Assembly (NCBI GenBank): GCA_017417055.1
Contig: JAFPZX010000098.1
Coordinates: 1-56,749 of the forward strand
Reading direction: 5' to 3'
DNA length: 56,749 nucleotides
Source: Anaerolineaceae bacterium
GTDB lineage: Bacteria; Chloroflexota; Anaerolineae; Anaerolineales; Anaerolineaceae
Below the pieces are notes generated by a model. It searched no databases and was not told the DNA's origin. It saw only the letters and a list, made by a program, of their open reading frames with translations. This document shows, piece after piece, positions 6,655 to 40,149 of the stretch; the stretch's first letter is position 1; each line of letters opens with the position of its first letter. Position numbers and translations under genes: made by a program.

Positions 6655-6853
6655 ACGGTACCTTTTATTTATCAATCAGGTTTCATTTGGTTAGAATTAT
6701 TAAATTTTATCACAATCTTTTCAATTTAATCAGGTTCTTTATTTATAAGAATATTGGAAATATGGTCTGAGGTTACTTTCATCATTATTGATTACAGCAC
6801 AGCTATTCATCGAATCAAAGAACCACATTATAATAAACAGCAGGAGATAAAAA

Positions 6854-14219: not shown

Positions 14220-15161
14220 ATGTATCTTTCAGTAGTAGTCCCTGTTTATAACGAGTACGAAAACATTCCGCTGTTATGTGACGCGGTCAGAAAAGCATTG
14301 GACGGTCTTGAAAAAGACTGGGAATTGATCCTGGTAAATGACGGCTCAAAGGATAACAGTATGGACGCGCTGAAAGAAGCCGCTGCTGCCGATCCTGTTC
14401 ATGTAAAAGTGATTGGCCTGCGGAGAAATTTCGGTCAAACAGCGGCGATTGCGGCAGGTGTTGACCATGCAATTGGCGAGATCATTGTCCTGATGGATGC
14501 GGATCTTCAGAATGATCCTTCCGATATCCCGGCTATGCTCGCGAAACTGGATGAAGGGTATGACCTTGTCAGTGGCTGGCGGAAAGACCGCAAGGATCCA
14601 TTTTTGCGCTCCTTTATATCCCGCATTGCCAATAAAATCATCTGCAAAGTCACGGGCGTCAACCTGCATGATTACGGATGCACCTTGAAAGCATACCGGA
14701 GGGAAGTCATCACCGGTTTCCGTTTATATGGCGAAATGCACCGCTTTATTCCTGCTTTCGCAAACACTTTTGGCGCGAAAATCGTTGAAATGCCTGTAAA
14801 ACATCATCCACGTGTTCTTGGAAAATCAAAATATGGATTCGAGCGTATTATCAAAGTTATTCTGGACCTGATAACGGTAAAATTCCTTTCCAGTTATGCC
14901 GACAAACCCATCTATCTTTTCGGCGGCGCCGGACTTGGTCTTTCCGGAATTTCTTTCCTGGTTCTGTTGTTCCTCGGTGTTCGCCGAATCTTCTGGGGTG
15001 TTTCCGTAATGGCTTCTCCGTTGTTCATGCTCGCGATCATGGTGTTTATCATGGGTTTCCTTTCTATTCTGATGGGCTTGATCGCTGAACTGCTGGTACG
15101 CACCTATCACGAATCTCAGGGCAAGACAGTCTATCATATTCGTGAAATGATCAATTTTTGA
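14220..15161 (+). CDS. GT2 glycosyltransferase, dolichol/undecaprenyl-phosphate type
   Basis: A 313-residue membrane-associated glycosyltransferase. The N-terminal 230 residues are a GT-A domain: SVVVPVYNEYENIP, the nucleotide-binding DGSKDN, and the DxD-like LMDADLQNDP. Two C-terminal transmembrane segments (~236-255 and ~268-295) match the DPM1/GtrB/ArnC branch, which moves a sugar from a nucleotide donor to a polyprenyl phosphate on the cytoplasmic face. A GAAAGG site precedes ATG 14220. It heads a group of polysaccharide genes and may supply a lipid-linked donor for the membrane protein at 16839-19433. Confidence 0.9.
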   Translation: MYLSVVVPVYNEYENIPLLCDAVRKALDGLEKDWELILVNDGSKDNSMDALKEAAAADPVHVKVIGLRRNFGQTAAIAAGVDHAIGEIIVLMDADLQNDPSDIPAMLAKLDEGYDLVSGWRKDRKDPFLRSFISRIANKIICKVTGVNLHDYGCTLKAYRREVITGFRLYGEMHRFIPAFANTFGAKIVEMPVKHHPRVLGKSKYGFERIIKVILDLITVKFLSSYADKPIYLFGGAGLGLSGISFLVLLFLGVRRIFWGVSVMASPLFMLAIMVFIMGFLSILMGLIAELLVRTYHESQGKTVYHIREMINF

Positions 15162-15164
15162 TTT

Positions 15165-15335
15165 GTAATAAGGCAATAGGATTTAGGCAATAGGCAATAG
15201 TAAGGGAATAATGAATAGAGTTTAGGATGTAAATGATAGGATATAGTTGTTAGGTGATAGATAGAAGCTTATTTTTCAAATCACTTTATTAATTACTATC
15301 CCCCTATGTCCTACCTCCTAATCCCCAATAAAATT
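15165..15335. repeat. 7-bp-period arrays (AATAGGC and CCTAYYC types)
   Basis: Most of the gap between the two glycosyltransferases is heptameric: ATAGGAT, TTAGGCA, ATAGGCA, ATAGTAA from 15170, then GATAGGA, TATAGTT, GTTAGGT near 15236. A second array runs CTATCCC, CCTATGT, CCTACCT, CCTAATC, CCCAATA from 15296 and ends at the ATG of the next gene. The second word is roughly the complement of the first, so the two could pair as a long imperfect hairpin. Confidence 0.7.
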
Positions 15336-16469
15336 ATGAAAATTCTCGTTCTTATCCATGAATTTCCTCCGATAGGGGGCGGCGGGGGACCGATCGCCCG
15401 TGATCTTTCGCTGCAATGGGTGAAAGCAGGTCATCAGGTACGGGTCGTGACGGCACGTTTTGGCGATCTTCCTGCAAGAGAAAATATAGATGGTCTGGAT
15501 ATTGTTCGTCTGGACTGTAATCGGACGGAATCCTTCCGAGCAAAAATGAAGGCCATGATCGGGTATGTAACAGCCGCTTCAAAATACTGCCTTTTTGACT
15601 GCAAAGATTTTCAACCGGATTTGATCCATGTTCACTTCGCGGTTCCCAATGGACCGGTCGCCATGCTTGCCTCCCGGAAAATGAAAGTTCCTTATGTAAT
15701 TACCGCTCACCTGGGTGATATTCCAGGCGCTTCTCCGGAAAAGACAAAGACCTGGTTTAAATATATTCAGCCCTTTACCCCACCGATTTGGAAAAATGCC
15801 GCCCGCATTGTGGCGGTGAGTCAGTATTCCCGGCGGATGGCATTGAATTCATACAATGTCCCGATTGATGTGATACCGAACGGGATCGATTATGTAAAAA
15901 TAAAAAACAATTCGATTGAACCGCATGAGATACCGGAAATTGTCTTTGCCGGAAGGTTTGTTCCGCAGAAAAATTTACGACAAATCGTCAAAACCTTATC
16001 GGAAATCCGGGATTTGAATTGGCATGCAACGCTGATAGGGGATGGCCAGGAAAAAGATGCTGTATTCAATGAAGTCAAGTCAGCCGGTTTGCAGGAACGC
16101 ATCAGCTTTCCGGGATGGAAAACACCGGAAGAGGTGATTGAAATCTTTCATAACAGCGATATACTTTTCATGCCATCGTTAACGGAAGGTTTGCCGGTGA
16201 CCGGCATTCAGGGAATGGCATCTGGTCTGGCTTTGATGCTGAGCAGCGCAGGCGGAAATCCGGAAATTGTAACCGAAGGGATGAATGGTTTTATTCATGA
16301 ACCGGATGATACGGATGGTTATGCGGTTGATTTCAGAAAACTGCTAACGGATCCGGATTTGCTTTTGAAGATACGGAAAAGCAGTGTCAGCGCTGCCGCT
16401 GCCTTTGACATCCGCGAAACCGCAGCAGAATATCTAAAATTATTTGAGACGGTGGTTAGTAGTCAGTGA
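15336..16469 (+). CDS. GT4 family glycosyltransferase
   Basis: I start at MKILVLIHEFPPIGGGGGP (ATG 15336, 377 residues) because the family begins there and the ten residues upstream are encoded by the 7-bp repeat. It is a GT-B enzyme: the N-terminal Rossmann half opens with the glycine loop, and the C-terminal half has the nucleotide-sugar region FAGRFVPQKNL, then MPSLTEGLPVTGIQGMASG with the conserved E-x7-E type motif. It probably extends a cell-surface polysaccharide. The last residues (VVSSQ) and stop codon are encoded by the next 7-bp array, so the C-terminus has been remodelled by the repeat. Confidence 0.9.
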   Translation: MKILVLIHEFPPIGGGGGPIARDLSLQWVKAGHQVRVVTARFGDLPARENIDGLDIVRLDCNRTESFRAKMKAMIGYVTAASKYCLFDCKDFQPDLIHVHFAVPNGPVAMLASRKMKVPYVITAHLGDIPGASPEKTKTWFKYIQPFTPPIWKNAARIVAVSQYSRRMALNSYNVPIDVIPNGIDYVKIKNNSIEPHEIPEIVFAGRFVPQKNLRQIVKTLSEIRDLNWHATLIGDGQEKDAVFNEVKSAGLQERISFPGWKTPEEVIEIFHNSDILFMPSLTEGLPVTGIQGMASGLALMLSSAGGNPEIVTEGMNGFIHEPDDTDGYAVDFRKLLTDPDLLLKIRKSSVSAAAAFDIRETAAEYLKLFETVVSSQ

Positions 16470-16508
16470 TCAGTGTCCAGTGGTCAGCAGTCAGTGACCA
16501 GTACATAG
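16452..16508. repeat. 7-bp-period array (CAGTGNN) overlapping the GT4 stop codon
   Basis: Heptamers GTGGTTA, GTAGTCA, GTGATCA, GTGTCCA, GTGGTCA, GCAGTCA, GTGACCA, GTACATA run without a break. The TGA of the upstream gene lies in the array. A complementary array closes the same gap at 16774-16836. Confidence 0.8.
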
Positions 16509-16649
16509 ATGTCGTTAGCAAGTTTTCAGTTTTTCGAATAATTCCTATATTGATGATATATATTTGTTGAATTCTGAATTCTGATGATTTGCTTTTGTTA
16601 GCTGGTCAGTGTTAATGATACGCTGATTTATAGCTATTTTACGCGAAAT

Positions 16650-16712
16650 GAGTCAATGCAACCTGTTCTGTTGACTCAAGTCTGAGTCAACGAAAACAGG
16701 TTACTTTGACTC
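16650..16712. repeat. GAGTCAA hairpin repeat, best-preserved copy
   Basis: Two ~30-nt arms, GAGTCAATGCAACCTGTTCT... and its near-exact complement ending TTTGACTC, flank a 3-base loop. A TIR-like ACGCTGATTTA lies upstream at 16620. It sits between convergent genes and may stop transcription from both sides. Confidence 0.8.
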
Positions 16713-16773
16713 TGTCGATTTAACTATGTGCAAATCACGAATAAATAATAAATACTTACATACCAATAAAAAA

Positions 16774-16836
16774 TGACTGCTGATAACTGGCTGTTGTCGG
16801 CTGGCTTCTGAAAACTGTCCACTGATCACTGACCAC
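16774..16836. repeat. 7-bp-period array (TGNNNAC) abutting a gene stop
   Basis: Nine heptamers, TGACTGC, TGATAAC, TGGCTGT, TGTCGGC, TGGCTTC, TGAAAAC, TGTCCAC, TGATCAC, TGACCAC, end beside the stop codon of the minus-strand gene at 16839. With the complementary array at 16452 they bracket the hairpin at 16650. Confidence 0.8.
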
Positions 16837-16838
16837 TA

Positions 16839-19433
16839 TTAAAAACATTCTTCCACAGCAACACAAACCGGTTCCGGGACGGGGCAGGAGAATTCCGGCA
16901 GCGGATCGCGCATGTAGGTGAAAACTTCACCCTGAGGCGTTTCAATCGTAACAGCTAAAATGTCTTCGTAACCGAAATCCGACTTGCAGCTGATTGCGCG
17001 GAACACAGAATCCTGCGGAAAATTGACAATCGCGTCTTTATGAGGCATCAGATATTCCTGATAAAGGATATTCTTATCGTTCTTGTTGATCCCCATAAAC
17101 GTCATCCGTGAAAATTCTTTCCCCATGGTTGACCCGGATGAGGCATGTTCACCGGTTTTGAAATAGTAAAAGCGGGGATAAACCACGATGCCATGAGTGA
17201 TATGCAGCAGCCCCTCTTCCTGTTGTTTTTCCACGGTTTCCCAGTCGATTCCGTCCTGATCTGCAAGCCTTTCTTTCAATACTGTCAGATCTCCTTTCTG
17301 AACCGCTGTATCCTTTGCAGGCATAAAGTTTTCAAAGAACAGCATCGCGGTAAAGAACAATGTAAAGCAAACGATTGAACAATAAGCTTTCTTATTCGAA
17401 TATTTATATTTAACAGAAACAACGTTATCCTTTTCAGGAACCAAAGGGGAGCCTTTCGCGAAAAGAATACTGAGAAAAACAGCCAGCAGCATCATGGGGA
17501 TCCAGTTCATCGGCACCACATACCGGCCGCCGGAAGAACGGCTGAACCCGATGGAAAATGCATATACGAACCAGAAATAAAGAATCGAGAATCCGGCAAC
17601 CCCGAAATACTTGACCAGGTACCCGGTAGTAACCGCACCCGCGAGCAGCCAGGTGATAATCAGAAACCACTGCATGGAACTGAACTGACCCTGCCAACCA
17701 TCCTTCCACAAACCATCTCCATCCTGTTTGTAAAGATGCGAAAGGTCCTGAAAACTGATTTCCATAGGCAGTGTGAGAAATGATGCTGAAATATTGTGCA
17801 GACTGTGGTTGATGATGCTTGGGACCAGTGGGAGATTTTTTATAGAATTATTATTCGAAAATTGTTGCGTGATTTGCCCTGTGTTAAATTCATCTTTTTG
17901 AGTTTCCGGAGAATCAGAGGCGATTTCAGAAATCTGGGCGTTTTGCGAATTTACGCCGGAATCTGCTTCAAACGGGCTTTTTTCCTGGAAACGCTGTCGG
18001 ATCAACACATTTTGAATGGTATAAGATAATTCAGAAATCATACCGGAAGAGGTAATCGCATCCCGGATAAGCATGGGTGCAGCTGTGAGCAGCATGGTCA
18101 GGAAAAAGAACAGCAGCGGTTTGGTCAGGCTGCGGATCTGTTTCCGATAACCGATGAACAAAATCAGCAGCGCCGCGGGTACAAATGCCATAAAGTTGTA
18201 CCGTGTGAATATCCCCAGCATCACCGTTCCGCCGGCAAAAGACGCGTAATAATTTTCTTGTCCCTCTTTTTTGAGCCAGCGGAAAACCGCGTAACAGAAC
18301 GAGGCCAGGATGATCTGCATCAGGAATTCGCTCATGATCAATCTGGAATGTGTTGTCAGGACGGTATGGGTGTTCAGGGCGTTCCATTCTTTCATGACAG
18401 AAAATGCGGCTGCCAGATAACCGCAGCCGATTCCACCGATAGCGTCACCGAAGAGAAACATGACAGCCGGCAGCAGCGCGAACAATCCCGATTGTATATA
18501 CATGCTCACGTTGTAATTGTTCCCGGCGACGAGATGCGTGAGAAAGTTGATGAACACCAGAGCCGGTTTCAATACGGTCCGTTTGAGGTTGAATCCCCAG
18601 CCGTTGAGGGCTGTCTGCCCCGCGATATCATAGGTGACCGCGTCGGAATAGGGATAATAATTCTGATCCGGCAGATAGGGACCGGGAGAAAAAAAATGGG
18701 GACTTTTGGGGACGAGTGACCAGATGATGGCAGAGACTGCCCAGATGATAAGGAAATGGACAATCCGTTTGTTGTTCGCCATGCGGCGGAATACCCCGCA
18801 CTTCCGGAAGAGTGCAAAAATCACGATGGTGCAAAACAATTGGATGCTCTGCAGCGGAATCCCGTTTTTATTCCAGAGAGAGGTTTCGACGGTTTTCCCC
18901 AGACCGCTGATTTCAATGAATAATACAAGAGCGAGTATGATCAGGAAAAAAACAGTGATGTGTTTTTTATGTGCGTATAGATTTATAAACAAAGATTTGA
19001 TCGATGCAAAACGGTCTTTGGTATAACACAGCATGATGGAAAACAACGCCGCAGAAAGGAACAGCCAGAGAATATAAGGTTTGATCCGGCTGAAATAAGC
19101 GGCTGCTTGGTGAAACCGGTAATCCGGCATGAGCAGAAAAAACAGGGACACGATCGAAAGACCGTAACAGATCCTTTGAAAAACATCATTATGGAGCAGA
19201 ACCGTAACCAGTTTCTTCCGAAACAGCAGCGTGAGGATATCAAAAAGCAGCAGGATCCCAAATCCAACGAGCATCAGCAGACGTTCTTTGCTGAGACCAA
19301 ACAGGAAAGCGTTTTTTTGATCCGCGGGAATTTTGAGAAGCGAAAATGCGCAGAATATTGTGACAGGAATAATCGCAAAAAGCGTCAGGACAAATGCTCG
19401 TTGGTTTGAATGATCTTCTTTATGGGTTCCCAT
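16839..19433 (-). CDS. Large polytopic membrane protein, probable GT-C-like glycosyltransferase
   Basis: An 864-residue protein with roughly a dozen hydrophobic segments across residues ~15-690 and a soluble C-terminal domain of ~180 residues. ATG 19433 has a good AAGGAAGAG site and overlaps the wecA-like gene by 49 bases. An extracytoplasmic loop (SPHFFSPGPYLPDQNYYPYS, then DAVTYD) carries acidic residues where GT-C enzymes place their catalytic aspartate, and later LGIFTRYNF resembles loops in the PMT/ArnT class. I infer a polyprenyl-phosphate-sugar-dependent transferase that decorates the polysaccharide made by neighbouring genes. An O-antigen-polymerase-like role is the alternative. No Pfam family is recognised with certainty. 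Confidence 0.6.
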   Translation of the reverse strand: MGTHKEDHSNQRAFVLTLFAIIPVTIFCAFSLLKIPADQKNAFLFGLSKERLLMLVGFGILLLFDILTLLFRKKLVTVLLHNDVFQRICYGLSIVSLFFLLMPDYRFHQAAAYFSRIKPYILWLFLSAALFSIMLCYTKDRFASIKSLFINLYAHKKHITVFFLIILALVLFIEISGLGKTVETSLWNKNGIPLQSIQLFCTIVIFALFRKCGVFRRMANNKRIVHFLIIWAVSAIIWSLVPKSPHFFSPGPYLPDQNYYPYSDAVTYDIAGQTALNGWGFNLKRTVLKPALVFINFLTHLVAGNNYNVSMYIQSGLFALLPAVMFLFGDAIGGIGCGYLAAAFSVMKEWNALNTHTVLTTHSRLIMSEFLMQIILASFCYAVFRWLKKEGQENYYASFAGGTVMLGIFTRYNFMAFVPAALLILFIGYRKQIRSLTKPLLFFFLTMLLTAAPMLIRDAITSSGMISELSYTIQNVLIRQRFQEKSPFEADSGVNSQNAQISEIASDSPETQKDEFNTGQITQQFSNNNSIKNLPLVPSIINHSLHNISASFLTLPMEISFQDLSHLYKQDGDGLWKDGWQGQFSSMQWFLIITWLLAGAVTTGYLVKYFGVAGFSILYFWFVYAFSIGFSRSSGGRYVVPMNWIPMMLLAVFLSILFAKGSPLVPEKDNVVSVKYKYSNKKAYCSIVCFTLFFTAMLFFENFMPAKDTAVQKGDLTVLKERLADQDGIDWETVEKQQEEGLLHITHGIVVYPRFYYFKTGEHASSGSTMGKEFSRMTFMGINKNDKNILYQEYLMPHKDAIVNFPQDSVFRAISCKSDFGYEDILAVTIETPQGEVFTYMRDPLPEFSCPVPEPVCVAVEECF

Positions 19434-20482
19434 AACTCTTCCTTTTCAAAGAAAACAATGGCAGCGATGCCGCTGATGAGGACAAAAGCGAAAATCAGGT
19501 TGGCTTCAATGACACTCTGCGAAATCGCGAAAAAGGCCAGGCTTTGCAGGGCAAAACTGACGAGATGCAGAAAAGAGGAAGCCTGAGGGGTGGAAAGTCC
19601 GATTCGAATCAAGCGGTGGTAGGTGTGATCGGTTCCGCTGTGATAAAAATGCTCTCCTTTGCGCCAGCGGGAAATGGTCACCAGTGTGGTGTCGAAAATC
19701 GGCACGCCCAGCAGCAGAATCGGCAGGAACCAGGTGTTTTTCTGAAGGAGTTCCGGCGGCGTGTAAATAATCGCGATGGAGGCGAGCAGGAACCCTATTA
19801 CCTGGGCACCTGAGTCTCCCATGAAAAGGAATGCCGGATGAGAATTGAAAAAACTCAAAGAAAGCGATGCGCCGAGCAGAATGCTGCAGTATAGGGCAAG
19901 GTTATGCTGTCCGGCATCCATAGCCGCGATGATCAGGAACCCTTCCGCCCAGGCAGAAAGCCCGATCATCACCCCGTCGGCGCTGTCCACCAGGTTAAAG
20001 GCATTTGTGATAAAAACGATCCAGAACATGGTCAGCCCCACGTCACAGAAATGGCAGAGCGTCTCAGGCATCCATGAGGAAAACAGTCGGGAATCGAACA
20101 AATGGGTCCTTGTCCCGGTGAGGATCAATACAAGTGTCCCGGCAATCTGTCCGGCAAGTTTGATTTTCCAGTTCAAGTGTTTCCAGTCATCATACAGGGC
20201 AATGAGATAAATGATAAAAGCTGCGCCGGTCATACGCCATAATTCGGGATCAATATGTTTATGGAAAATGAGCAGAACCAGGATCAGTGTCAGAAAAAAG
20301 GCTGTTCCACCACTGATCGGCACGGGATGTTTGTGAACTTTATGCGGTTCAGCATTCGGTCTGTCGATCAAATTAATGCGTATAGCGAGACGCGTAGCCA
20401 GTATGGCCGTCAGTATGCTGATAACAAAACTGATAAAAAGCGATTCAAAAACAAGGCCTGTGTTCAGAGCGGAAAGGTTCAT
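19385..20482 (-). CDS. Polyprenyl-phosphate HexNAc-1-phosphate transferase (WecA/TagO/MraY superfamily)
   Basis: A 365-residue integral membrane enzyme with about ten or eleven helices. The superfamily motifs are present: IDRPNAEPHKVHKHPVPISG (cytoplasmic loop after helix 1), YDDWKHLNW, NAFNLVDSADGVMIG (the aspartate-rich catalytic loop), and FMGDSGAQVIGFLL, ending in a GTDHTYHRLI histidine loop. It moves a HexNAc-1-phosphate from UDP-sugar to undecaprenyl phosphate, the first step in surface polysaccharide or teichoic-acid-like polymer synthesis. Its ATG overlaps the stop of the upstream GT4 gene by four bases (ATGA), so they are translationally coupled. Calling it WecA or TagO specifically is not justified. 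Confidence 0.92.
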   Translation of the reverse strand: MNLSALNTGLVFESLFISFVISILTAILATRLAIRINLIDRPNAEPHKVHKHPVPISGGTAFFLTLILVLLIFHKHIDPELWRMTGAAFIIYLIALYDDWKHLNWKIKLAGQIAGTLVLILTGTRTHLFDSRLFSSWMPETLCHFCDVGLTMFWIVFITNAFNLVDSADGVMIGLSAWAEGFLIIAAMDAGQHNLALYCSILLGASLSLSFFNSHPAFLFMGDSGAQVIGFLLASIAIIYTPPELLQKNTWFLPILLLGVPIFDTTLVTISRWRKGEHFYHSGTDHTYHRLIRIGLSTPQASSFLHLVSFALQSLAFFAISQSVIEANLIFAFVLISGIAAIVFFEKEELWEPIKKIIQTNEHLS

Positions 20483-21597
20483 TGCGGAGATAATACTTTT
20501 TGATAAACGGAATAGATTCCGTCATTGATGATATGTGTGGAAAACTTCTGTTCAGCTAACTGACGGGAAGCTTTGCCCATCTCTGCACATTTTTCCGGGT
20601 TGTTTATCAGTTTCAGCAGCGCGTCACGCAGGGCAGAAGCGTTTTTGGAGGGAACAAGATAGCCGTTCAAACCTTCTTTTACCACTTCCCGGCAGCCGGG
20701 AACGTCAGTTGTGATGATCGGCCGTCCGCAAGATGCCGCTTCCAGCAGGATTTTGGGCAGTCCCTCCCGGTAAGATGGCAGACAGACGATATGGCTCATG
20801 GAGATAACGGTCGGGATATCGTCTTGCCAGCCCCACCATTCCACATTGCCTTCTTTCTGCCATTGTGTGAGCTGGTCGGAAGGGATGCAGGTTGGGTTGC
20901 CCGGATCGTTGTTTCCTATCAGGGCAAAGCGCGCCTCTACGCCGCTGTCTTTAATCATGCAGGCTGCTTCCACAAATTCCCGCACCCCTTTGTCCCATAT
21001 CATACGGGCGGGCAGAATGGTAAGCGGTACGGAATTGGGCGGTTCGATAGGTACAAAATGTTCGGTGTCGACGCCTGTTCCGAGGATGATCGTGCTGTTG
21101 TTTTCGCTCACCAGCCCCATTTGGGTGAACAGGGCTCTGTCATCGGGATTCTCAAAGATCACCTGGGTGTCACACAGCGCCTTTTTATAGAGTTTTTTGA
21201 CGACTTCCCGGATCAGCCGGATATGCGGTTTGTTGGAAAGGAACATATACCCCAGACCTGTGATGGAGTTGACGATGGCTTTCATGCCCAGTTCTTTGGC
21301 TGCCAGGGATCCATAAATGACGCATTTGATGGTGAAATGATGAACCAGATCGGGTTTCTCTTCCGCGTAAACTTCCTTGATGCGGCGGATGGTTTCGCTT
21401 TCCTGCAGCGGGTTGATGCCTTTCCGGGAGAATTCAAAAGGGATGTGTCGGTAACCCGCTTCTTTTAATTTATCCGCGTGTTCTCCTGACGGTGACATGA
21501 AAACAACCTCCCATCCCTGTTCCTGCAGGTAATCCGCATAGGCCAGACGGAAATTGTATAAGTACCAGTCAGTGTTTGCAAATAATATCGCCTTCAA
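20479..21597 (-). CDS. GT4 family glycosyltransferase, PglA/galactosyltransferase-like
   Basis: A 372-residue GT-B enzyme. The N-terminal MKAILFANTDWYLYNFRLAY with VVFMSPSGEHA is typical of the group that adds a sugar to an undecaprenyl-diphospho-HexNAc. The C-terminal half holds LPARMIWDKGVREFVEAA and CLPSYREGLPKILLEAASCG, the glutamate-containing donor site. It is first in a three-gene minus-strand operon with the WecA/TagO-like enzyme and the large membrane protein; probably it adds the second sugar to the lipid carrier. Substrate specificity is not deducible. Confidence 0.9.
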   Translation of the reverse strand: MKAILFANTDWYLYNFRLAYADYLQEQGWEVVFMSPSGEHADKLKEAGYRHIPFEFSRKGINPLQESETIRRIKEVYAEEKPDLVHHFTIKCVIYGSLAAKELGMKAIVNSITGLGYMFLSNKPHIRLIREVVKKLYKKALCDTQVIFENPDDRALFTQMGLVSENNSTIILGTGVDTEHFVPIEPPNSVPLTILPARMIWDKGVREFVEAACMIKDSGVEARFALIGNNDPGNPTCIPSDQLTQWQKEGNVEWWGWQDDIPTVISMSHIVCLPSYREGLPKILLEAASCGRPIITTDVPGCREVVKEGLNGYLVPSKNASALRDALLKLINNPEKCAEMGKASRQLAEQKFSTHIINDGIYSVYQKVLSPQ

Positions 21598-26656: not shown

Positions 26657-26730
26657 GTTCTGGATAAAGTTCCCTCCGGTTTTTCATTTACCAAATGGAT
26701 TATAATTTATCCATATTGGGAAGGTGGACG

Positions 26731-28158
26731 ATGATCGATTTGAATCAAGTAGAAAGCTATCGGGAAAACAACCGGATCGAGGCGAAAAAGGCTTTGGGAG
26801 GACTGCCGCACAGTATCTGGGAAACCTATTCCGCTTTTGCTAACACTTTAGGCGGCGTTATCCTGCTCGGTGTTGAAGAATTTCGGGATAAAACTTTCCA
26901 TACTGTGAACCTGCCCGATCCGGAACGATTGAAGCAAGAATTCTGGGATGGGCTGAATGATCCCAAAATTGCCAGTATTAATTTGTTGTCCAAAAAGGAT
27001 GTGAGCATTGAAACGGTAAACGGGGACAGAATTATCGTTATCAATGTTCCGAAAGCTGACCGCACCTGCAAACCGGTATATGTTGAAGGCAATCCGCTGA
27101 ACACATACCGGAGGAACGGCGAAGGGGATTACAAATGCACAAAAGAGGAATTTCAGGCGATGGTCCGGGACGCATCCATCCGTTCCCTGGATATGACGGT
27201 ATTGGATGAGTTTTCCGCGGACGCTTTTGATCCGGTCAGCGTTCGTGAATATCGGGAGTGTATGCGGATCTCACGTCCGGGTTTTGTTCCGGAAAGCCTT
27301 GATGATGAAGAATTTCTGATGAAGATAGGCGCTGTCGGAATCGGCGAAGACGGGAACCGTCATCCTACTGCCGGCGGACTGCTGATGTTTGGCAGAGAAT
27401 ATGATATTGTCCGCGTGTTTCCGACTTATTTTCTGGATTATCGTGAAGACGGGGATGAACAAACACGATGGTCGGACCGGCTCATCTCTTCCGCCGGTGA
27501 CTGGAGCGGGAATCTGCTGGATTTCTATTTCCGTGTTTGCGAAAAACTGCAGCTTGATTCTGTGAGGGATGACGCAGCCCTTCAGATGGCTGTTCGGGAG
27601 GCGTTTACGAATTGTCTTGTCAATGCCGATTACTGCGGCCGCGGTGGGATCGTTGTGGAAAAGAGAAAAGATCAGATCCGATTTTCGAATCCCGGGAATT
27701 TCCGTATTAATTTAAATGCCGCGATCACCGGCGGTCTTTCGGATCCCCGCAACAGCGTGATTATGAAATTATTCAATATGCTCGATTTTGGGGAAAGATC
27801 GGGGAGTGGGATTCCCAATATATTCCGCGTGTGGAAAGAACACTGCCTGCCGGAACCTGTAATTAAGCAGTCCGCGAATCCTGACCGCACTGAGTTTCTG
27901 CTGCCGCTTGTGCCGATTGAGTCCCAAAACACCACCGAAAAAAGCAGAAAAAAGACGGATATGGCCATAAAGCGGGTCAAACGGCAGATGATCATAGATT
28001 ATCTGACAGAACATCGTGAGGTATCAACAAATGAACTCGCGAAGTATCTGAATCTGAACCCTTCAAGCGTTAGAGAATATATACGAAACCTGATTCGTGA
28101 TGGAATTGTTATTGGTGTCGGGAATTCAAGGAGCAGGGTTTACCGCTTGAAATCATAG
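26731..28158 (+). CDS. AlbA_2-domain ATP-binding transcriptional regulator
   Basis: ATG 26731 follows GGAAGGTGG and gives 475 residues; the 12-residue upstream extension is less likely. Residues ~1-140 form an AlbA_2/Schlafen-like DNA-binding domain (ENNRIEAKKALGGLPHSI, SAFANTLGGVILLGVEE). Residues ~275-375 form the C-terminal GHKL-type ATPase-like domain (MAVREAFTNCLVNADY, LFNMLDFGERSGSGI). Residues ~415-475 are a winged helix (IDYLTEHREVSTNELAKYLN). This is the standard layout of the ATP-dependent DNA-helicase-annotated regulator family. It is the intact relative of the pseudogene at 9732. Targets unknown. Confidence 0.85.
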   Translation: MIDLNQVESYRENNRIEAKKALGGLPHSIWETYSAFANTLGGVILLGVEEFRDKTFHTVNLPDPERLKQEFWDGLNDPKIASINLLSKKDVSIETVNGDRIIVINVPKADRTCKPVYVEGNPLNTYRRNGEGDYKCTKEEFQAMVRDASIRSLDMTVLDEFSADAFDPVSVREYRECMRISRPGFVPESLDDEEFLMKIGAVGIGEDGNRHPTAGGLLMFGREYDIVRVFPTYFLDYREDGDEQTRWSDRLISSAGDWSGNLLDFYFRVCEKLQLDSVRDDAALQMAVREAFTNCLVNADYCGRGGIVVEKRKDQIRFSNPGNFRINLNAAITGGLSDPRNSVIMKLFNMLDFGERSGSGIPNIFRVWKEHCLPEPVIKQSANPDRTEFLLPLVPIESQNTTEKSRKKTDMAIKRVKRQMIIDYLTEHREVSTNELAKYLNLNPSSVREYIRNLIRDGIVIGVGNSRSRVYRLKS

Positions 28159-32184: not shown

Positions 32185-32850
32185 ATGAATCTTTCAGTTA
32201 CAGTTGACGGAAAAACTTTTTCCGTAGAAATCGCAAATCCGAAAGCTGATCCGATGATCATCACCGTGGACGGAACCGAATTTTCCGTCACCGCTGATGC
32301 TTCCGGAGCTGTTTCCGCAGCCCCTGCTCAGACCATGGTTGAAGGCAGTGAAACTGTCACCGCCCCGATCCCGGGTGTTATCCAGGAAGTCAATGTTAAA
32401 CCCGGCCAGTCCGTCAAGAAGGGTGATATTCTCTTCGTTCTCGAAGCTATGAAGATGAAGAACAACATCACTGCCATGCATGACGGCAAGGTACAGACTG
32501 TCAACGTCACAAAGGGTGACTCCGTGACTCACGGTTCCGTTCTGATGTCCTACGCTGTCAAACAGGCTGCGCCGGCTGCTGCCCCTGCTGCCTCCGCAAA
32601 AGGTTCTGCTGCCAAATCTACGGCAGCTGCCGGTGGTGAAACTGTTACCGCCCCGATCCCGGGCGTGATCCAGGAAGTCAAAGTTCAGGCCGGACAGTCC
32701 GTCAAGAAGGGTGATGTTCTTTTCGTTCTCGAAGCCATGAAGATGAAGAACAACATCACTGCCATGCATGACGGCAAGGTTGCTTCCGTCAGCGTCACCA
32801 AGGGCGACAGTGTAACACACGGACAGACTTTGATGACTTACGCCGGCTGA
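32185..32850 (+). CDS. Biotin carrier subunit with two tandem biotinyl domains
   Basis: 221 residues, ATG 32185 after AGGAG. The N-terminal ~40 residues match the head of GcdC/MmdC-type carrier proteins. Then come two nearly identical biotinyl domains, each with the EAMKM biotinylation motif (Lys90 and Lys186), separated by an Ala/Pro/Ser linker (~115-150) that should be flexible. In the decarboxylase complex, biotin carries CO2 from the alpha subunit to the membrane beta subunit. One such domain is usual; two in tandem is not. The two copies are similar even at the DNA level, which points to recent duplication or conversion. Confidence 0.92.
   Translation: MNLSVTVDGKTFSVEIANPKADPMIITVDGTEFSVTADASGAVSAAPAQTMVEGSETVTAPIPGVIQEVNVKPGQSVKKGDILFVLEAMKMKNNITAMHDGKVQTVNVTKGDSVTHGSVLMSYAVKQAAPAAAPAASAKGSAAKSTAAAGGETVTAPIPGVIQEVKVQAGQSVKKGDVLFVLEAMKMKNNITAMHDGKVASVSVTKGDSVTHGQTLMTYAG
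32349..32822 (+). repeat. Internal ~185-bp duplication of the biotin domain
   Basis: Bases 32349-32533 and 32638-32822 are close copies, including runs shared over the biotin-binding loop. The copies encode the two biotinyl domains. Confidence 0.9.
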
Positions 32851-33992: not shown

Positions 33993-34015
33993 AAAAGATA
34001 ATTCAATAAATATCG

Positions 34016-34040
34016 AAAAAGCGCCGGTCAGGCGCTTTTT
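34016..34040 (+). terminator. Intrinsic terminator of the sodium-pump operon
   Basis: AAAAAGCGCC / GGCGCTTTTT with loop GGTCA, then CTTT; 24 bases past the beta-subunit stop. Confidence 0.9.
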
Positions 34041-34121
34041 CTTTCCGACATTTTTAGCTGAGTAAAAAAACAATCTTATTAACGAATAGATATTGGTTTA
34101 CGATTTATAATAAATCTGTCA

Positions 34122-34284: not shown

Positions 34285-37050
34285 ATGACGATTGGAAATG
34301 CCTTATACACGCTGATCATCGGGCCTCTTGCGCTGCTTTTTGAGGTTGTGTTTTCTATTGCATTTCGCTTTGTGAATAATCCGGGAATTGCGATCCTGTT
34401 TTTGAGCCTGGTTGTGAATTTGCTCGTGCTGCCTTTATATCGCAGGGCGGATGCCATGCAGGCGGAGGAACGCGATAAAGAAGAAAAACTAAAATTTTGG
34501 ATTGACCACATCAAAAAGACGTTTAAAGGCGATGAGCAGTTCATGATGCTCCAGACATATTACCGCCAAAATGACTATAAACCGCTGGATGCGTTAAAGG
34601 GTTCTGTTTCGCTCTTGCTGCAAATTCCTTTCTTCATTGCTGCTTACCGGTTTTTATCCGGACTTCAGACGCTGAAAGGGGTTCCTTTTGGACCGATCCG
34701 TGATCTCGGGGCACCGGACGGCATGTTTACCATTTTTGGTGTTCCGGTGAACGTGCTTCCCATCCTGATGACAGCAGTGAATATCGTCTCCGCATCGATT
34801 TATCTAAAGGGCTTTTCTTTGAAAAACAAGCTGCAGATGTATGGAATGGCGGCTGTATTTCTTGTTATTCTCTATAATTCCCCTTCCGGTCTTGTTTTGT
34901 ATTGGACCTGTAATAATATTTTTTCTCTTCTGAAAAATATATTGGGCCGGACGAAGGATTCCAAAAAAGTTCTGCAATCAGCAGCTTTTTTCCTTGGTTT
35001 TTTGTTTCAGGAATACTTGTTGTTCTTCCAGCCGTTCCATTCGTTCCGGAAAACAGCTGTGTTGGGAATACTAAGCCTGCTGCTGCAGCTGCCAATGCTC
35101 TCAAAATTATTCATCCGCAAAAAAATCCATTTTACAATTCCCGAATCGGGTAAATCCGATAACATCCTTTTTACTTTTGGCTGCATTTTCATGACTTTCC
35201 TTACGGGGGTTTTGATCTCTTCGGAAGTAATCAAAACATCTCCTCCTGATTTTGTTTATGCGGAGATGTATTATTCGCCGTTGTGGTATATCTTCAGTTC
35301 TCTGCTGCTGGCTGCGGGAACCTTTCTGCTCTGGTTTGGTATTTTCTATAAACTTGCCTCGTCTGCCGGGAAAAGGGTCATGTCTTTGGGAATATTGATC
35401 CTTTCCGTTTGTTCGGCAGTGAATTATATGTTCTTTGGAACAAATCGGGGTGATATCTCGGCAAATCTGGTTTTTGACAATCCTCCTGTTGATTCGTTCA
35501 GAGACTATGTTATCAATCTTGCTGTGCTGCTGCTTGTTTCAGTTGTGTTGGCGTTTATCCGGAAAAAGAAAGAAAGCATTGCTTCCGGTGCTTTGCTGAC
35601 TTTGTCTCTGGCAGTTCTGGTCATGTCTGTTTTGAACATATCGGAGATCAGCAGAGACCTGAATGTCATACGACAGACAAGTGATAAAACGGAAAGTCCT
35701 CTTCCGGAAATAACGCTGAGCAAAAAGGGAAAAAATGTGGTCATTTTCATGATGGACCGTGCTATCGGTTTTTATTTCCCGTTCCTTATAGAAGAAAAAC
35801 CGATTTTGAAAGAACAATTTGCGGGATTTACCTATTATCCGCAGACGATATCCTATGCGAGTAAAACAAACATGGCGCTGCCGGCTATTTACGGCGGGTA
35901 TGAATATACTCCGGACAAAATCAACGAGCGGCCGGATCTAAGCCTGATGGAGAAACATAACGAGGCCTTGCTGTTGATGCCGTCTCTCTTTAATGCAGCC
36001 GGATACAGCGTCAATATATTACAACCAACCTATGCGAATTATCAAATTCCTTCAGATTTGTCTTTGTATGATCAGCTGCCGGGGGTCCATGCGTCAAACT
36101 TCAAAGATTTTGAAATTTTAGCACCGGAAGTGGTTGAGAGTGAAATTCAAACACGGAACCGTAATTTCTTTTGTTTCAGTGTCTATAAAATCGTGCCGCT
36201 TGTCTTCCAGCCGACAATATATACGGATGGTTTGTATAATGAGGTTGACGCAATGACGAATAAAAAGGTTATCAGTGTTCCGACACAGCGGGTTCAAAGC
36301 CTTTTCCGGGCAACCGGGATCAGGACAGCGTTTCAGCAGAATTTGAATGTTCTCGAAAAGCTTCCTGCCATGACTGTGATCAACGAGAAGGCTGAAAACA
36401 CATTTACAACACTTGATAACGGTACGACCCATGAACAGGTCCTGCTGCAGCTGCCTGACTATACGCTTTCGGATTCGGTTGACAATACGCCGTACGAGAC
36501 ACAGCCTGTTCTCCGCAGATCAGCGGAAGGCAGGGAAATAGAGCTGCAGTCTTCTTACCAAATGGTCCATTATCACTGCAATATGGCGGGATTCCTTGCT
36601 TTGGGGAAATGGATGGACTATCTGCGGGAAAATGATGTTTATGACAACACGAGGATCATCATTGTTTCAGATCACGGCGAATATCAGCATTTTCCGGGAA
36701 TGTTATTTGGCCCCGGTGAGTCCTGGCTGGAAGATGTTTTATATTTCAATCCGGTATTGCTTGTGAAGGATTTTGATCAAAAAAATTATATGGTTGACAA
36801 CCGGTTTATGACCAACGCGGATGTTCCGACGCTTGCGATGGACGGATTGATTGAGTCACCGGTTAATCCGGCGACCGGGGAACCTGTTACCGATGAAAGA
36901 AAACAGGAGCCTGATAAAAGATGTTATTTTGTCGGGGAGTACAACATAAAATATAATAACGGGAATACTTTTATCCCGTTTTACAGTGCTGTTTTCCATG
37001 GGGGAGATATCTACGACTCGGGAAACTGGGAGTTTATAGAGGATTATTAA
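34285..37050 (+). CDS. YidC/Oxa1-like domain fused to a sulfatase/LtaS-superfamily domain
   Basis: ATG 34285 gives 921 residues (a TTG two codons earlier is possible). Residues ~1-220 are a YidC/Oxa1-type core: LALLFEVVFSIAFRFVNNPG, VVNLLVLPLYRRADAMQAE, and a helical loop then SVSLLLQIPFFIAAYRFL and NSPSGLVLYWTCNNIFSLL. Residues ~225-460 hold further membrane helices. Residues ~480-890 are an alkaline-phosphatase-superfamily domain: metal-binding NVVIFMMDRA (Asp491), nucleophile candidate Thr528 in YASKTNMALPAIYGG, and VSDHGEYQHFPG (Asp796-His797). This resembles LtaS or phosphoethanolamine transferases, with the catalytic part outside the membrane. It leads a three-gene set with a TagB/F-like and a LicC-CobD-like protein. 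Role inferred: phospho-substituent transfer at the envelope. Confidence 0.82.
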   Translation: MTIGNALYTLIIGPLALLFEVVFSIAFRFVNNPGIAILFLSLVVNLLVLPLYRRADAMQAEERDKEEKLKFWIDHIKKTFKGDEQFMMLQTYYRQNDYKPLDALKGSVSLLLQIPFFIAAYRFLSGLQTLKGVPFGPIRDLGAPDGMFTIFGVPVNVLPILMTAVNIVSASIYLKGFSLKNKLQMYGMAAVFLVILYNSPSGLVLYWTCNNIFSLLKNILGRTKDSKKVLQSAAFFLGFLFQEYLLFFQPFHSFRKTAVLGILSLLLQLPMLSKLFIRKKIHFTIPESGKSDNILFTFGCIFMTFLTGVLISSEVIKTSPPDFVYAEMYYSPLWYIFSSLLLAAGTFLLWFGIFYKLASSAGKRVMSLGILILSVCSAVNYMFFGTNRGDISANLVFDNPPVDSFRDYVINLAVLLLVSVVLAFIRKKKESIASGALLTLSLAVLVMSVLNISEISRDLNVIRQTSDKTESPLPEITLSKKGKNVVIFMMDRAIGFYFPFLIEEKPILKEQFAGFTYYPQTISYASKTNMALPAIYGGYEYTPDKINERPDLSLMEKHNEALLLMPSLFNAAGYSVNILQPTYANYQIPSDLSLYDQLPGVHASNFKDFEILAPEVVESEIQTRNRNFFCFSVYKIVPLVFQPTIYTDGLYNEVDAMTNKKVISVPTQRVQSLFRATGIRTAFQQNLNVLEKLPAMTVINEKAENTFTTLDNGTTHEQVLLQLPDYTLSDSVDNTPYETQPVLRRSAEGREIELQSSYQMVHYHCNMAGFLALGKWMDYLRENDVYDNTRIIIVSDHGEYQHFPGMLFGPGESWLEDVLYFNPVLLVKDFDQKNYMVDNRFMTNADVPTLAMDGLIESPVNPATGEPVTDERKQEPDKRCYFVGEYNIKYNNGNTFIPFYSAVFHGGDIYDSGNWEFIEDY

Positions 37051-37071
37051 TCCAGGACCAAAAGGGGTTTC

Positions 37072-38292
37072 ATGCTGTTATATATCGATCCGGGTACCGG
37101 AAGCATGTTGTTCACAATACTGATTGGCGTTTTGGGTGCGGCTGTTTATGGACTGCGGGAAGTTTTCATGAAGCTGCGCTTTCGTCTGAGCGGCGGAAAA
37201 GCTGAGGCTGTTAGTGAAAACAAAACGCCTATCGTAATATTTACCGACAGCAAACGCTATTGGAATGTGTTTGGACCGATTTGTGACGAGTTTGAACGCC
37301 GCGGCGAAAAGCTCGAATATCTGACATCTTCATCAGATGATCCGGCATTGGAAAAAGATTATGCGCATGTAAAATGTCAGTTTATCGGTGAAGGAAATAA
37401 GGCTTTTGCCAGACTGAACACACTCCGTGCGGATATTGTCCTGTCTTCCACGCCCAGTCTGGATGTTTTATACTGGAAACGCTCAAGGGATGTAAAGTGG
37501 TATGTTCATATTCCCCATGCAGCCAGTGATATAACGATTTACAGGATGTTTGGCATTGATTACTTTGACACGATTCTGATATCCGGAGATTATCAGGAAG
37601 AACAGATTCGGAAGCTTGAGAAATTACGGAACCTTCCCGCAAAGGAAATTGTCAAGGTAGGCATTATTTATATGGATGAAATGAAAAAGCGGCTGGATGC
37701 GGCGCCTCCTCTTCCGGAGCATCCCACAACAGTTCTGCTGGCTCCTTCCTGGGGCGCAAGCGGTATTTTATCCGTATACGGCGGTTCTATTATTCAAGCG
37801 CTTCTTGATACCGGATACAGTGTGATTGTCCGGCCTCATCCACAATCCTATACAGCTGAAAAGGAACTGATTGAAAAAATAATGGCTGAATTTCCGGCAG
37901 GTGACCGGCTGGAATGGAACCGGGATAATGACGGTTTTGAGGTGCTGCGGCGGTCTGATATCATGATTTCGGATTTTTCCGGCGTGATTTTTGACTTTAC
38001 GCTGGTTTTTGACAAGCCGGTAATTTATGCGGATACATCGTTTAACAAGGATCCCTATGACGCAGCCTGGCTTGATGAAGAGCTATGGACGTTTTCAGTT
38101 CTGCCGAAAATCGGACGGCAGCTCACCAGGGATGGGTTAGATAATATGCGAAACCTTATTGATTCCTGTCTTGCGGATGATACCTTTCAAAAAGGCAGGG
38201 ATGAAGCACGAAAAGAGACCTGGGCATATATTGGTGAAAGCACTGCTCGTACCGTTGACTATTTGCTGCGGAAACGTGCAGACTTAGAATAG
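37072..38292 (+). CDS. CDP-glycerol glycerophosphotransferase family protein (TagB/TagF-like)
   Basis: 406 residues, 21 bases after the previous stop. Residues 1-30 form one membrane anchor (MLLYIDPGTGSMLFTILIGV). The rest is the GT-B-type Glyphos_transf fold: VHIPHAASDITIYRMFGIDY, DTILISGDYQEEQI, LLAPSWGASGILS, VIVRPHPQ, and the donor-site block SDIMISDFSGVIFDFTLVFD with DKPVIYAD. Such enzymes transfer glycerol-phosphate or ribitol-phosphate units from CDP-linked donors onto lipid-linked polymers at the inner face. The neighbouring cytidylyltransferase-like protein could make a CDP donor. The exact unit is unknown. Confidence 0.88.
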   Translation: MLLYIDPGTGSMLFTILIGVLGAAVYGLREVFMKLRFRLSGGKAEAVSENKTPIVIFTDSKRYWNVFGPICDEFERRGEKLEYLTSSSDDPALEKDYAHVKCQFIGEGNKAFARLNTLRADIVLSSTPSLDVLYWKRSRDVKWYVHIPHAASDITIYRMFGIDYFDTILISGDYQEEQIRKLEKLRNLPAKEIVKVGIIYMDEMKKRLDAAPPLPEHPTTVLLAPSWGASGILSVYGGSIIQALLDTGYSVIVRPHPQSYTAEKELIEKIMAEFPAGDRLEWNRDNDGFEVLRRSDIMISDFSGVIFDFTLVFDKPVIYADTSFNKDPYDAAWLDEELWTFSVLPKIGRQLTRDGLDNMRNLIDSCLADDTFQKGRDEARKETWAYIGESTARTVDYLLRKRADLE

Positions 38293-38331
38293 TCATTTGG
38301 ATAGTTCCTCAGTACTTTAGGAGAAAACATA

Positions 38332-40149
38332 ATGCAGGCCATAATTTTAGCTGCCGGAATGGGAAAACGGCTGAAAGAACTGACAAAAAGTAATACAAAA
38401 TGTATGGTGAAGGTCAATAATGTTACTTTGATTGACAGAATGCTGCACCAGATTGAAAAGAAAAATCTTTCCAGGATCGTTATTGTCATCGGATATGAGG
38501 GTCAAAAACTGGTTGAATATGTCAATTCGCTTGGAATCCGCACCCCGATTGTGTTTATCAATAACCCGATATATGACAAAACAAACAACATTTATTCTCT
38601 GGCTCTTGCATCTGATTGGCTTTGCAGGGAAGATACACTGCTTTTTGAATCAGATATTATCTTTGAAGATTCAGTTTTGGATAAAATAATTGACGATCCG
38701 CGTGATACATTGGCTCTCGTTGATAAATATGAACCATGGATGGACGGGACTTGTCTGAAGCTGTCTGATGACGATACGATCAGGGAATTTATCGCGAAAA
38801 AAAATTTCAGATTCGATGAAACGAACCTGTATTATAAAACGGTAAATATCTATAAATTCAGCAGGCAGTTTTCCAAAAATTATTATGTCCCGTTTTTACA
38901 CGCCTACCAAGCAGCCCTTGGCGAAAATGAATATTACGAGCAGGTTCTGCGCGTCATCACTATGCTGGATGATCCCGTCATAAAAGGAAAACGCCTTGCC
39001 GGTGAGCGATGGTATGAAATTGATGATATTCAGGATCTGGTTATCGCGGAGTCTATTTTTACAGACGACGATGATGAAAAGCTCAGCCGAATAGAATCCC
39101 GTTACGGAGGATATTGGCGTTATCCCCGCCTGTTAGATTTTTGCTATATTGTTAACCCATATTTCCCATCGGAAAGATTGATCGAAGAGATGAAAGCTAA
39201 TTTCGGACGATTGTTGACGTCTTATCCCAGCGGTATGCATGGAAACTGCCTGCTGGCCGCAAAGATTTATGGCATTCGTCCGGAAAATGTTGTTGTGGGG
39301 AACGGTTCCGCCGAATTAATTAAGTCTCTTATGCATTCACTCGAAGGGAAAACCGGGTTTATCCGGCCGACGTTTGAGGAGTATCCGAACCGCTATGCGG
39401 AAGAGAATTCTGTTGTCTTTCATCCGGATAAATCTGATTTTTCTTATTCGTACAAAGATATTATCGATTTCTTTGAACCTCATCACATAAACAATCTTAT
39501 TTTGATCAACCCGGATAATCCAAGCGGAAACTATATTCCGAAAAAGGATATGTTACAGATTGTTTCATGGGCTTCAAGAGAAAAAATAAACCTGATCATT
39601 GATGAATCCTTTGTGGATTTTTCAGATGAACAAAACGCATCATTGATTGATCAGGATTTTATTGATTCCAACCCGCATTTGTATCTGATGAAAAGTATCT
39701 CAAAAACTTACGGTGTTCCCGGTCTTCGTTTGGGCGTTCTGGTATCCGGAAATGTAAATACTGTTTCCCGGATCAAAAAAGATGTGTCTATCTGGAATAT
39801 TAATTCGTTTGCTGAATTTTTTATGCAGATTGAAGAGAAGTATAAAGATGAATATGCGAAGGGATTGGATCAATTAAAGGCAGAACGCGGTAAATTTGAA
39901 GCCGCACTTTCCAAAATCAAAGGATTCCGGGTTATTCCGTCCCAGGCAAATTATGTTATGATTGAACTGGACAAAACCATTCCCGCAAGATATCTGACGA
40001 AAAAATTACTGGTTGACCATGATTTGTTTATTAAAGATCTTACAGCCAAGATGGGTGGAAAGAATTACATCCGTCTGGCTGTAAGGTCTGCTGAAGAAAA
40101 TGAAGTTCTTCTCATTGCCTTGCGGCAGGAACTTGGTGTTATTGATTAA
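38332..40149 (+). CDS. LicC-like nucleotidyltransferase fused to HisC/CobD-like PLP enzyme
   Basis: 605 residues, ATG 38332 with AGGAG. Residues 1-~240 are a sugar-nucleotidyltransferase fold (IILAAGMGKRLKELTKSNTK, KCMVKVNNVTLIDR, LLFESDIIFE), closest in style to CTP:phosphocholine cytidylyltransferase LicC. Residues ~260-605 are a fold-type I PLP enzyme: NPDNPSGNYIPKKDM, LIIDESFVDF, the Schiff-base lysine Lys458 in MKSISKTYGVPGLRLG, and a C-terminal Arg in NYIRLAVRS. This second half resembles HisC and the threonine-phosphate decarboxylase CobD. A bifunctional enzyme that makes an amino-alcohol phosphate and activates it as a CDP derivative is the best inference. Aminotransfer instead of decarboxylation is possible. 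Confidence 0.82.
   Translation: MQAIILAAGMGKRLKELTKSNTKCMVKVNNVTLIDRMLHQIEKKNLSRIVIVIGYEGQKLVEYVNSLGIRTPIVFINNPIYDKTNNIYSLALASDWLCREDTLLFESDIIFEDSVLDKIIDDPRDTLALVDKYEPWMDGTCLKLSDDDTIREFIAKKNFRFDETNLYYKTVNIYKFSRQFSKNYYVPFLHAYQAALGENEYYEQVLRVITMLDDPVIKGKRLAGERWYEIDDIQDLVIAESIFTDDDDEKLSRIESRYGGYWRYPRLLDFCYIVNPYFPSERLIEEMKANFGRLLTSYPSGMHGNCLLAAKIYGIRPENVVVGNGSAELIKSLMHSLEGKTGFIRPTFEEYPNRYAEENSVVFHPDKSDFSYSYKDIIDFFEPHHINNLILINPDNPSGNYIPKKDMLQIVSWASREKINLIIDESFVDFSDEQNASLIDQDFIDSNPHLYLMKSISKTYGVPGLRLGVLVSGNVNTVSRIKKDVSIWNINSFAEFFMQIEEKYKDEYAKGLDQLKAERGKFEAALSKIKGFRVIPSQANYVMIELDKTIPARYLTKKLLVDHDLFIKDLTAKMGGKNYIRLAVRSAEENEVLLIALRQELGVID

Follow-up and report, generated by a model that had tools for sequence, protein, structure and literature searches.

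A YidC core fused to an EptA/LtaS-like phosphotransferase in a candidate gene module for phospho-amino-alcohol decoration

We describe here a three-gene module from an Anaerolineaceae bacterium (Chloroflexota; contig JAFPZX010000098.1 of assembly GCA_017417055.1), where the whole analysed stretch of 56,749 nucleotides is called the window. The module consists of three open reading frames (ORFs), all on the + strand and separated by 21 and 39 bases: Y (gene 1, 34285..37050), which encodes a YidC core, a linker and an EptA/LtaS-like phosphotransferase; T (gene 2, 37072..38292), a TagF-like phosphotransferase of 406 aa with an N-terminal helix; and CP (gene 3, 38332..40149), a protein of 605 aa that joins a cytidylyltransferase to a CobD-like pyridoxal phosphate (PLP) enzyme. 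We propose, with confidence that stands at about even, that they form a self-contained route decorating extracytoplasmic molecules with a phospho-amino-alcohol, by way of a lipid donor made by T, its carriage by the YidC core and a final transfer by Y. We hold somewhat more tentatively, a little short of even, that the YidC core has been turned from a protein insertase into a dedicated carrier of the T-made lipid-linked phospho-alcohol, which the attached EptA-like enzyme would then use. We observed the gene set, the folds of Y, its conserved catalytic-type residues, a predicted topology, the genetic linkage and an exchange of donor genes; we infer all of the reactions, a lipid as the acceptor of T and a carrier function for YidC. 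A sequence-only reading of this DNA had already described three co-oriented, closely spaced genes forming one unit with donor synthesis, cytoplasmic transfer and outside transfer, and at the level of genes this description holds; the polymer that it named as acceptor is a candidate.

The first part of Y is a YidC/Oxa1 core (residues 3-228; 34285..34962, + strand), as indicated by the Pfam family 60KD_IMP (2.1e-26 over residues 36-221, 93.3 bits against a cut-off of 35; present in 48 of the 48 Ys scanned), by alignment to E. coli YidC and by Foldseek, which placed the core of the AlphaFold model (pLDDT 90.8 for Y) on E. coli YidC (6al2) with an rmsd of 3.9 A over 217 columns. The position aligned with E. 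coli YidC R366, which we take to be the positive charge in the hydrophilic groove of insertases, is Asn (Asn47) in 90 of 91 Ys and Ser in the remaining one, and Y thus lacks the positively charged groove residue of the YidC type. The possibility that Y is the sole YidC of its cell was rejected, as the window genome has an ordinary yidC on contig C85, with a Lys at the groove position (read by eye). The core is followed by two extra helices and a linker (residues 229-291; 34963..35151, +; helices 228-250 and 256-278 in the model), mostly gone from a shorter form of Y (about 848-903 aa, with matches interrupted between about 230 and 280), then by five helices as in EptA, PbgA and LtaS (292-469; 35152..35718, +; helix count in the AlphaFold model) and by an alkaline-phosphatase-fold domain (hereafter AP; 35719..37047, +), which the positive-inside rule alone predicts to lie on the outer side. 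Our Y alignment comprises the window and 90 of the 104 full-length Ys, and our T alignment the window and 62 of the 66 Ts. D493, T530, H718, D798 and H799 of the AP part are identical in 91 of 91 rows, and their order suggests that they are equivalent to the Thr and metal ligands of the fold. Foldseek ranked EptA, PbgA and MCR-1 first to third for Y, with LtaP tenth and LtaS fourteenth, while the Pfam Sulfatase match (7.2e-5) fell under its cut-off. The second part of Y, a phosphotransferase in the earlier reading, resembles a complete five-helix EptA/LtaS-like unit and more than a catalytic domain. For the start of Y, the options are TTG 34279 (which would give 923 aa) and ATG 34285; the latter is the better one because Met3 is nearly invariant in the Y alignment.

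T matched the Pfam family Glyphos_transf (PF04464, the TagF family) at 1.4e-10 (41.1 bits against a cut-off of 22.1), and its model (pLDDT 89.0) has an N-terminal helix (7-39) and an alpha/beta body. A PDB search with the single T sequence gave no match, and the polymerase Cps3D (8qoy) was found only with a profile. All 63 rows of the T alignment keep three motifs unchanged: Y-I-D-P-G-T-G, R-P-H-P-Q and S-D-x-S. The neighbouring genes of T point to a CDP-choline/ethanolamine-type donor rather than CDP-glycerol. A teichoic-acid-like system, with T polymerising glycerol- or another alditol-phosphate and Y adding units outside like LtaS, is distinctly improbable: T does belong to the CDP-glycerol glycerophosphotransferase family, LtaS and LtaP are among the structural neighbours of Y and a 139-aa CTP_transf_like protein lies beside T in one locus (L028), but Pfam detects no CTP_transf_like protein (the glycerol-3-phosphate cytidylyltransferase type) in the window module, and the partners in relatives are LicC-like, choline kinase-like, EamA and BCCT or SSF transporter proteins or a serine-phosphate-decarboxylase-like enzyme. 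Of the two units first suggested, phospho-amino-alcohol or glycerol phosphate, choline or ethanolamine phosphate fits the donor genes better and glycerol phosphate appears less likely. As a separate observation, an Rce1-like (CAAX-protease-family) membrane protein adjoins T in choline-type loci (L024:8080-8769 and L019:9378-9986, both Pfam-scanned), and relatives of the L024 protein occur in L051 and L076.

CP carries the Pfam domains NTP_transferase and Aminotran_1_2. Its first half (38332..39066, +) is a LicC/NTP_transferase-type cytidylyltransferase domain that matches 1jyk, a CTP:phosphocholine cytidylyltransferase, and 6pd1 ('Nucleotidyl transferase/aminotransferase, class V', which is presumably the PntC-AEPT fused cytidylyltransferase/aminotransferase), the latter through residues 2-243 alone (2.7e-12). 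The second half (39097..40149, +; PLP lysine Lys458) is CobD-like, of the serine/threonine phosphate decarboxylase-like kind, with 6oux as best PDB match (2.7e-45, 158 bits) ahead of the CobD 1lc5 (106 bits); 6oux was deposited as 'Threonine phosphate decarboxylase-like enzyme', and we take it to be SMUL_1544, a serine-phosphate decarboxylase. Against NCBIfam, the best model is TIGR01140 (162.7 bits, below its cut-off of 290.55) followed by TIGR01141 (134.4), and by this cut-off the PLP half is, on sequence, related to the CobD family and not an orthologue. The same fusion, with the PLP lysine kept, is present in five aligned relatives (one of the genus and four clostridial). Given this pairing of a cytidylyltransferase with a CobD-like PLP enzyme, CDP-ethanolamine is the likeliest donor. 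That CP would make another CDP-amino-alcohol (for example CDP-serinol or CDP-1-amino-2-propanol), its PLP half being a transaminase or a threonine-phosphate decarboxylase and the rest of the scheme unchanged, is unlikely: both CobD and HisC are near by the NCBIfam scores just given, but 6oux remains the best solved relative of this half, well ahead of 1lc5. The Pfam scan of Y, T and CP gave no LicD, choline kinase or EamA family; a relation to LicC is seen in the first half of CP only.

We next consider how these genes are distributed. A scan of bacterial genomes for Y yielded at least 563 confirmed relatives; the best 80 gave 77 loci (designated L), and with a further four stretches taken from G006 and G013, two genomes of the same genus as the window genome (G000), the total is 81, of which L013 and L014 belong to a single place. 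Judged by record title, almost all of the 77 best loci are from Clostridia, many of them from gut and rumen samples, and they also include Schwartzia and an Eggerthellaceae metagenome-assembled genome. T and Y were present in only one of 199 sampled genomes of the window's class, namely the window's own, and Y in 3 of the 14 genomes of its genus, and a novelty restricted to Chloroflexota was thus rejected. The system is broader and stranger than the earlier account, whose general outline holds but whose taxonomic setting was mistaken.

Y and T are tightly linked. In the 81 loci, Y was found in 78 (a simple ORF caller gave no Y in L027, L053 and L058) and T in 63, forming 75 adjacent T-Y pairs (T first in 54, Y first in 21), 28 of which overlap. 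All 53 genomes chosen for holding Y also hold T. In a sample of 196 genomes of the clostridial class of G064 (the Lachnospiraceae genome of L045), T and Y occurred in the same 7; without two genomes already found through Y, the T-Y counts are 5/0/0/189 (Fisher p 4.6e-10). Rare co-occurrence had been set beforehand as the refuting outcome; Y and T were together in every sample searched, and chance neighbourhood of the two is rejected. A LicC/CP-type cytidylyltransferase of at least 180 bits was detected in 49 of the 53 Y genomes, and among the four genomes without it, G082 encodes a cytidylyltransferase of another kind together with a PLP enzyme in the same gene run. In the clostridial-class sample, LicC/CP (E<=1e-45) was found in 7 of 7 T/Y genomes vs 13 of 189 others (p 3.9e-6 without the two genomes found through Y). 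It seems from these gene counts that the system needs a cytidylyltransferase that is also employed elsewhere. Copy numbers differ in one direction: in a hand count, Ys outnumbered Ts in 19 of the 53 genomes, equalled them in 34 and were fewer in none (T matches under 220 bits, one each in G006, G071, G083 and G088, were left out, a pair of T fragments from contig ends of G088 was taken as one T, and broken or contig-end Ys were entered as Y).

The donor genes are exchanged between loci. In G006, the genes downstream of the decarboxylase set encode, in this order, four Ys, a single T, a fusion of LicC with a choline kinase, another choline kinase and an EamA/LicB-like transporter, the lic-type genes standing in place of CP; in G013 the order is T, Y, CP. 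The three lic-type proteins scanned in G006 are LicC-LicA, LicA and EamA, none being LicD, a result limited to these proteins as no whole-genome search for LicD was made. Over the 81 loci, where several contigs are short, LicC-like genes are present in at least 25, choline-kinase-like in at least 18, LicB-like in at least 13 and the PLP type in at least 6. A clostridial locus (L077) has a CTP_transf_like protein and a PLP enzyme two genes beyond T and Y; the former (L077:16258-17583) is fused to a GFO_IDH_MocA oxidoreductase domain and lies beside the PLP enzyme. On a quick T tree with 22 tips labelled by hand, the choline-type and PLP-type donor genes require at least 5 changes (L077, with its other cytidylyltransferase, was labelled PLP type; L021, with both types, and L017, L078 and L086, with distant or opposite lic genes, were left unlabelled). 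The third gene of the window set can be exchanged, its place in relatives being taken by licC/licA/licB-type genes or by a different cytidylyltransferase with a PLP enzyme.

Sequence divergence separates a constant and a variable part of Y. Over all pairs, the median pairwise identity is 61% for the YidC part, 56% for T, 48% for the AP part and 30.5% for the middle helices. Within loci, 22 of 22 Y pairs (13 places) have a higher identity in the YidC part than in the AP part, with values of up to 99% vs 65%; in L055, the YidC parts are 96-99% identical vs 62-68% for the AP parts, although no more than 49-75% of the four-fold sites of these YidC parts agree. With many silent sites differing, selection would keep the YidC part constant, probably aided by some gene conversion. 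The variation of T follows that of the YidC part (r 0.75) more than that of the AP part (r 0.58); over 55 pairs the bootstrap difference is 0.10-0.24. This covariation, which includes the middle helices, suggests a partner or substrate common to T and the membrane part of Y in each genome, with AP parts that may serve different acceptors. The reading frames are kept in G013, another species of the genus, at 57% (Y), 86% (T) and 80% (CP) identity; the values for T and CP are about like those of the flanks, and recent acquisition by the window's species alone is unlikely. In the Y tree (FastTree), in which some forks are open, the G013 Y pairs with a G006 copy (support 98) and the window Y stands outside, as expected if old tandem copies were lost differently among genomes. 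Beside its four tandem Ys, G006 has a fifth, distant copy whose YidC part is without much of its cytoplasmic loop (stretches L013:9586-15188, L010, L014:379-3135 and L016:1627-4155).

In the mechanism that we propose, the PLP half of CP would first decarboxylate O-phospho-serine to phospho-ethanolamine, which the other half would convert with CTP to CDP-ethanolamine (in relatives, CDP-choline would come from LicB/LicA/LicC-type proteins). T, held at the membrane by its N-terminal helix, would then move the phospho-alcohol from CDP onto a common lipid of the membrane, so that a lipid-linked donor would form at the inner face. Carriage of this donor to the outer face would fall to the YidC core of Y, with its groove uncharged at the key position, and there the EptA/LtaS-like half would load the phospho-alcohol on its own threonine and pass it to an acceptor; several Ys served by one T would thus reach several acceptors. 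EptA-type enzymes draw on lipid donors. The second and third steps are suggested by the enzyme families, the ratio of one T to many Ys, the coupling of T to the YidC part and the published scrambling activity: a preprint reports that YidC scrambles phospholipids in vitro (PMC10491306; see also the review PMC7618853).

A different division of labour, with the same end product, would make T LicD-like: its cytoplasmic acceptor for the phospho-alcohol would be a glycan or a glycolipid. Y would act on its own outside, using head groups of ordinary phospholipid, and its YidC core would merely aid the membrane entry of this large protein or of its partner glycolipid. T is in the TagF/Cps3D family, whose members act on polymers and lipid-linked glycans, three loci (L019, L045 and L080) resemble capsule clusters by eye, and a Mycoplasma LicD-family enzyme moves phosphocholine and phosphoethanolamine to glucosyl-diacylglycerol, according to PMC11982090, which shows that an enzyme of this family can use CDP-ethanolamine with a glycolipid acceptor. 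Nevertheless, T is conserved across lineages with different envelopes (at the median identity given above), and its acceptor therefore looks as if it were universal; T and Y are never apart in the samples, and many Ys accompany one T. We consider this division of labour improbable, if a little less so than a different product of CP, and retain the lipid-donor route via T and YidC.

Several observations nonetheless weigh against that route. The superposition of Y on full-length EptA is loose (Foldseek rmsd 16.6 over 668 columns), as is that on PbgA (residues 286-922, rmsd 14.2), and many structural matches of Y are plain sulfatases; VIA-align likewise gave mostly sulfatases, EptA being absent from the 50 matches listed. 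Thr530 is a candidate nucleophile by conservation and motif order. Attempts to bridge to the AP domain by sequence through E. coli OpgB, EptC and BcsG yielded no useful alignment, since hhalign matched short stretches near the DH motif or nothing. EptA-type enzymes can also take ordinary phosphatidylethanolamine, and T would therefore be unnecessary as a donor maker. Two Y genomes (G046 and G088) have no LicC/CP match and a third (G061) a weak one only, while the 13 of 189 clostridial-class genomes noted above carry LicC/CP without T and Y. LicD proteins stand beside or near Y in L028, L080 and L086, and the CDP-alcohol may therefore go to LicD there. Finally, four-fold silent sites in L055 agree more in the YidC part (49-75%) than in the AP part (31-45%), so gene conversion may be partly behind the near-identity of the YidC parts, and T covaries with the middle helices even more (r 0.79) than with the YidC part, so that its link is not special to the latter.

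The module is preceded by a sodium-pump decarboxylase gene set whose last gene encodes the beta subunit (OAD-beta), and a terminator-like hairpin (34015..34041, listed on the - strand; an 11-pair stem, by consensus match only) lies between that gene and the module. Among the sites listed for the window, none falls in the Y-T and T-CP gaps; the 9 sites found are not clearly above chance (6.6 expected in shuffled sequence). Downstream of CP is a convergent gene with N_BRCA1_IG domains (Pfam). Elsewhere in the window, glycan assembly genes (14220-21597) encode two kinds of glycosyltransferase, a WecA/MraY-type protein (Glycos_transf_4) and a protein of 864 aa that has no Pfam match at E<=0.001; these genes are a possible source of acceptors for Y. 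The decarboxylase carrier protein (32185-32850) has two biotinyl domains in tandem. Proteins combining SLFN_AlbA_2 and HATPase_c_4 are encoded at 26695-28158 and at L015:6754-8310, and that of G013 is located between the module and the N_BRCA1_IG gene. A 666-aa protein (4675-6675, - strand) has an eCIS_core domain (8.9e-18), a type associated with contractile injection systems.

In the open PMC literature, which lacks most subscription papers, we recognised no account of a YidC-phosphotransferase fusion or of a T-Y pair. If the proposed route is true, nature would have supplied, in the form of a gene fusion, a test case for the movement of lipids by YidC-type proteins in cells, an issue raised by the in vitro scrambling data of PMC10491306. 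It would also provide a further route to phosphocholine- or phosphoethanolamine-bearing surfaces in Clostridia, where LicD or PptA alone would be sought; some phosphocholine (ChoP) producers are without a known pathway, as an excerpt of PMC10434233 states. The tandem arrays of Ys with constant and variable parts suggest an evolvable repertoire of surface chemistry, in which a near-constant YidC part and a diversifying transferase would make the decorations of the surface interchangeable. The system would also connect the world of LicCAB (CDP-choline) with that of lipid donors (PptA/EptA).

Compared with known systems, Y has the 60KD_IMP family and Oxa1 fold of YidC/Oxa1 insertases, with Asn in place of their groove Arg. 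Like EptA/MCR-type enzymes, LtaS/LtaP and PbgA, it has five helices followed by an extracytoplasmic AP fold with conserved Thr, Asp and His, but an entire YidC core, in many cases with two additional helices, stands ahead of these. Y also forms tandem arrays and was accompanied by T in every genome checked; we know of no EptA/LtaS-type member that carries a YidC part. T shares PF04464 above cut-off, R-P-H-P-Q, S-D-x-S and a Cps3D profile match with TagF, TagB and Cps3D, and differs from them by its size (about 410 aa), its N-terminal helix with the invariant Y-I-D-P-G-T-G and its link to CDP-choline/ethanolamine-type genes. CP joins a cytidylyltransferase to a PLP enzyme as PntC-AEPT does, with a PLP part that is class I/II CobD-like and not class V. 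Last, G006 and several clostridial loci resemble the Lic-1 system (LicA, LicB, LicC and LicD) in having LicC-like, choline-kinase-like and LicB-like genes next to Y and T, which replace LicD or join it. An excerpt of PMC10434233 treats Lic-1/LicD as separate from the phosphatidylcholine/PptA route, and the Y/T system looks like a bridge between the two.

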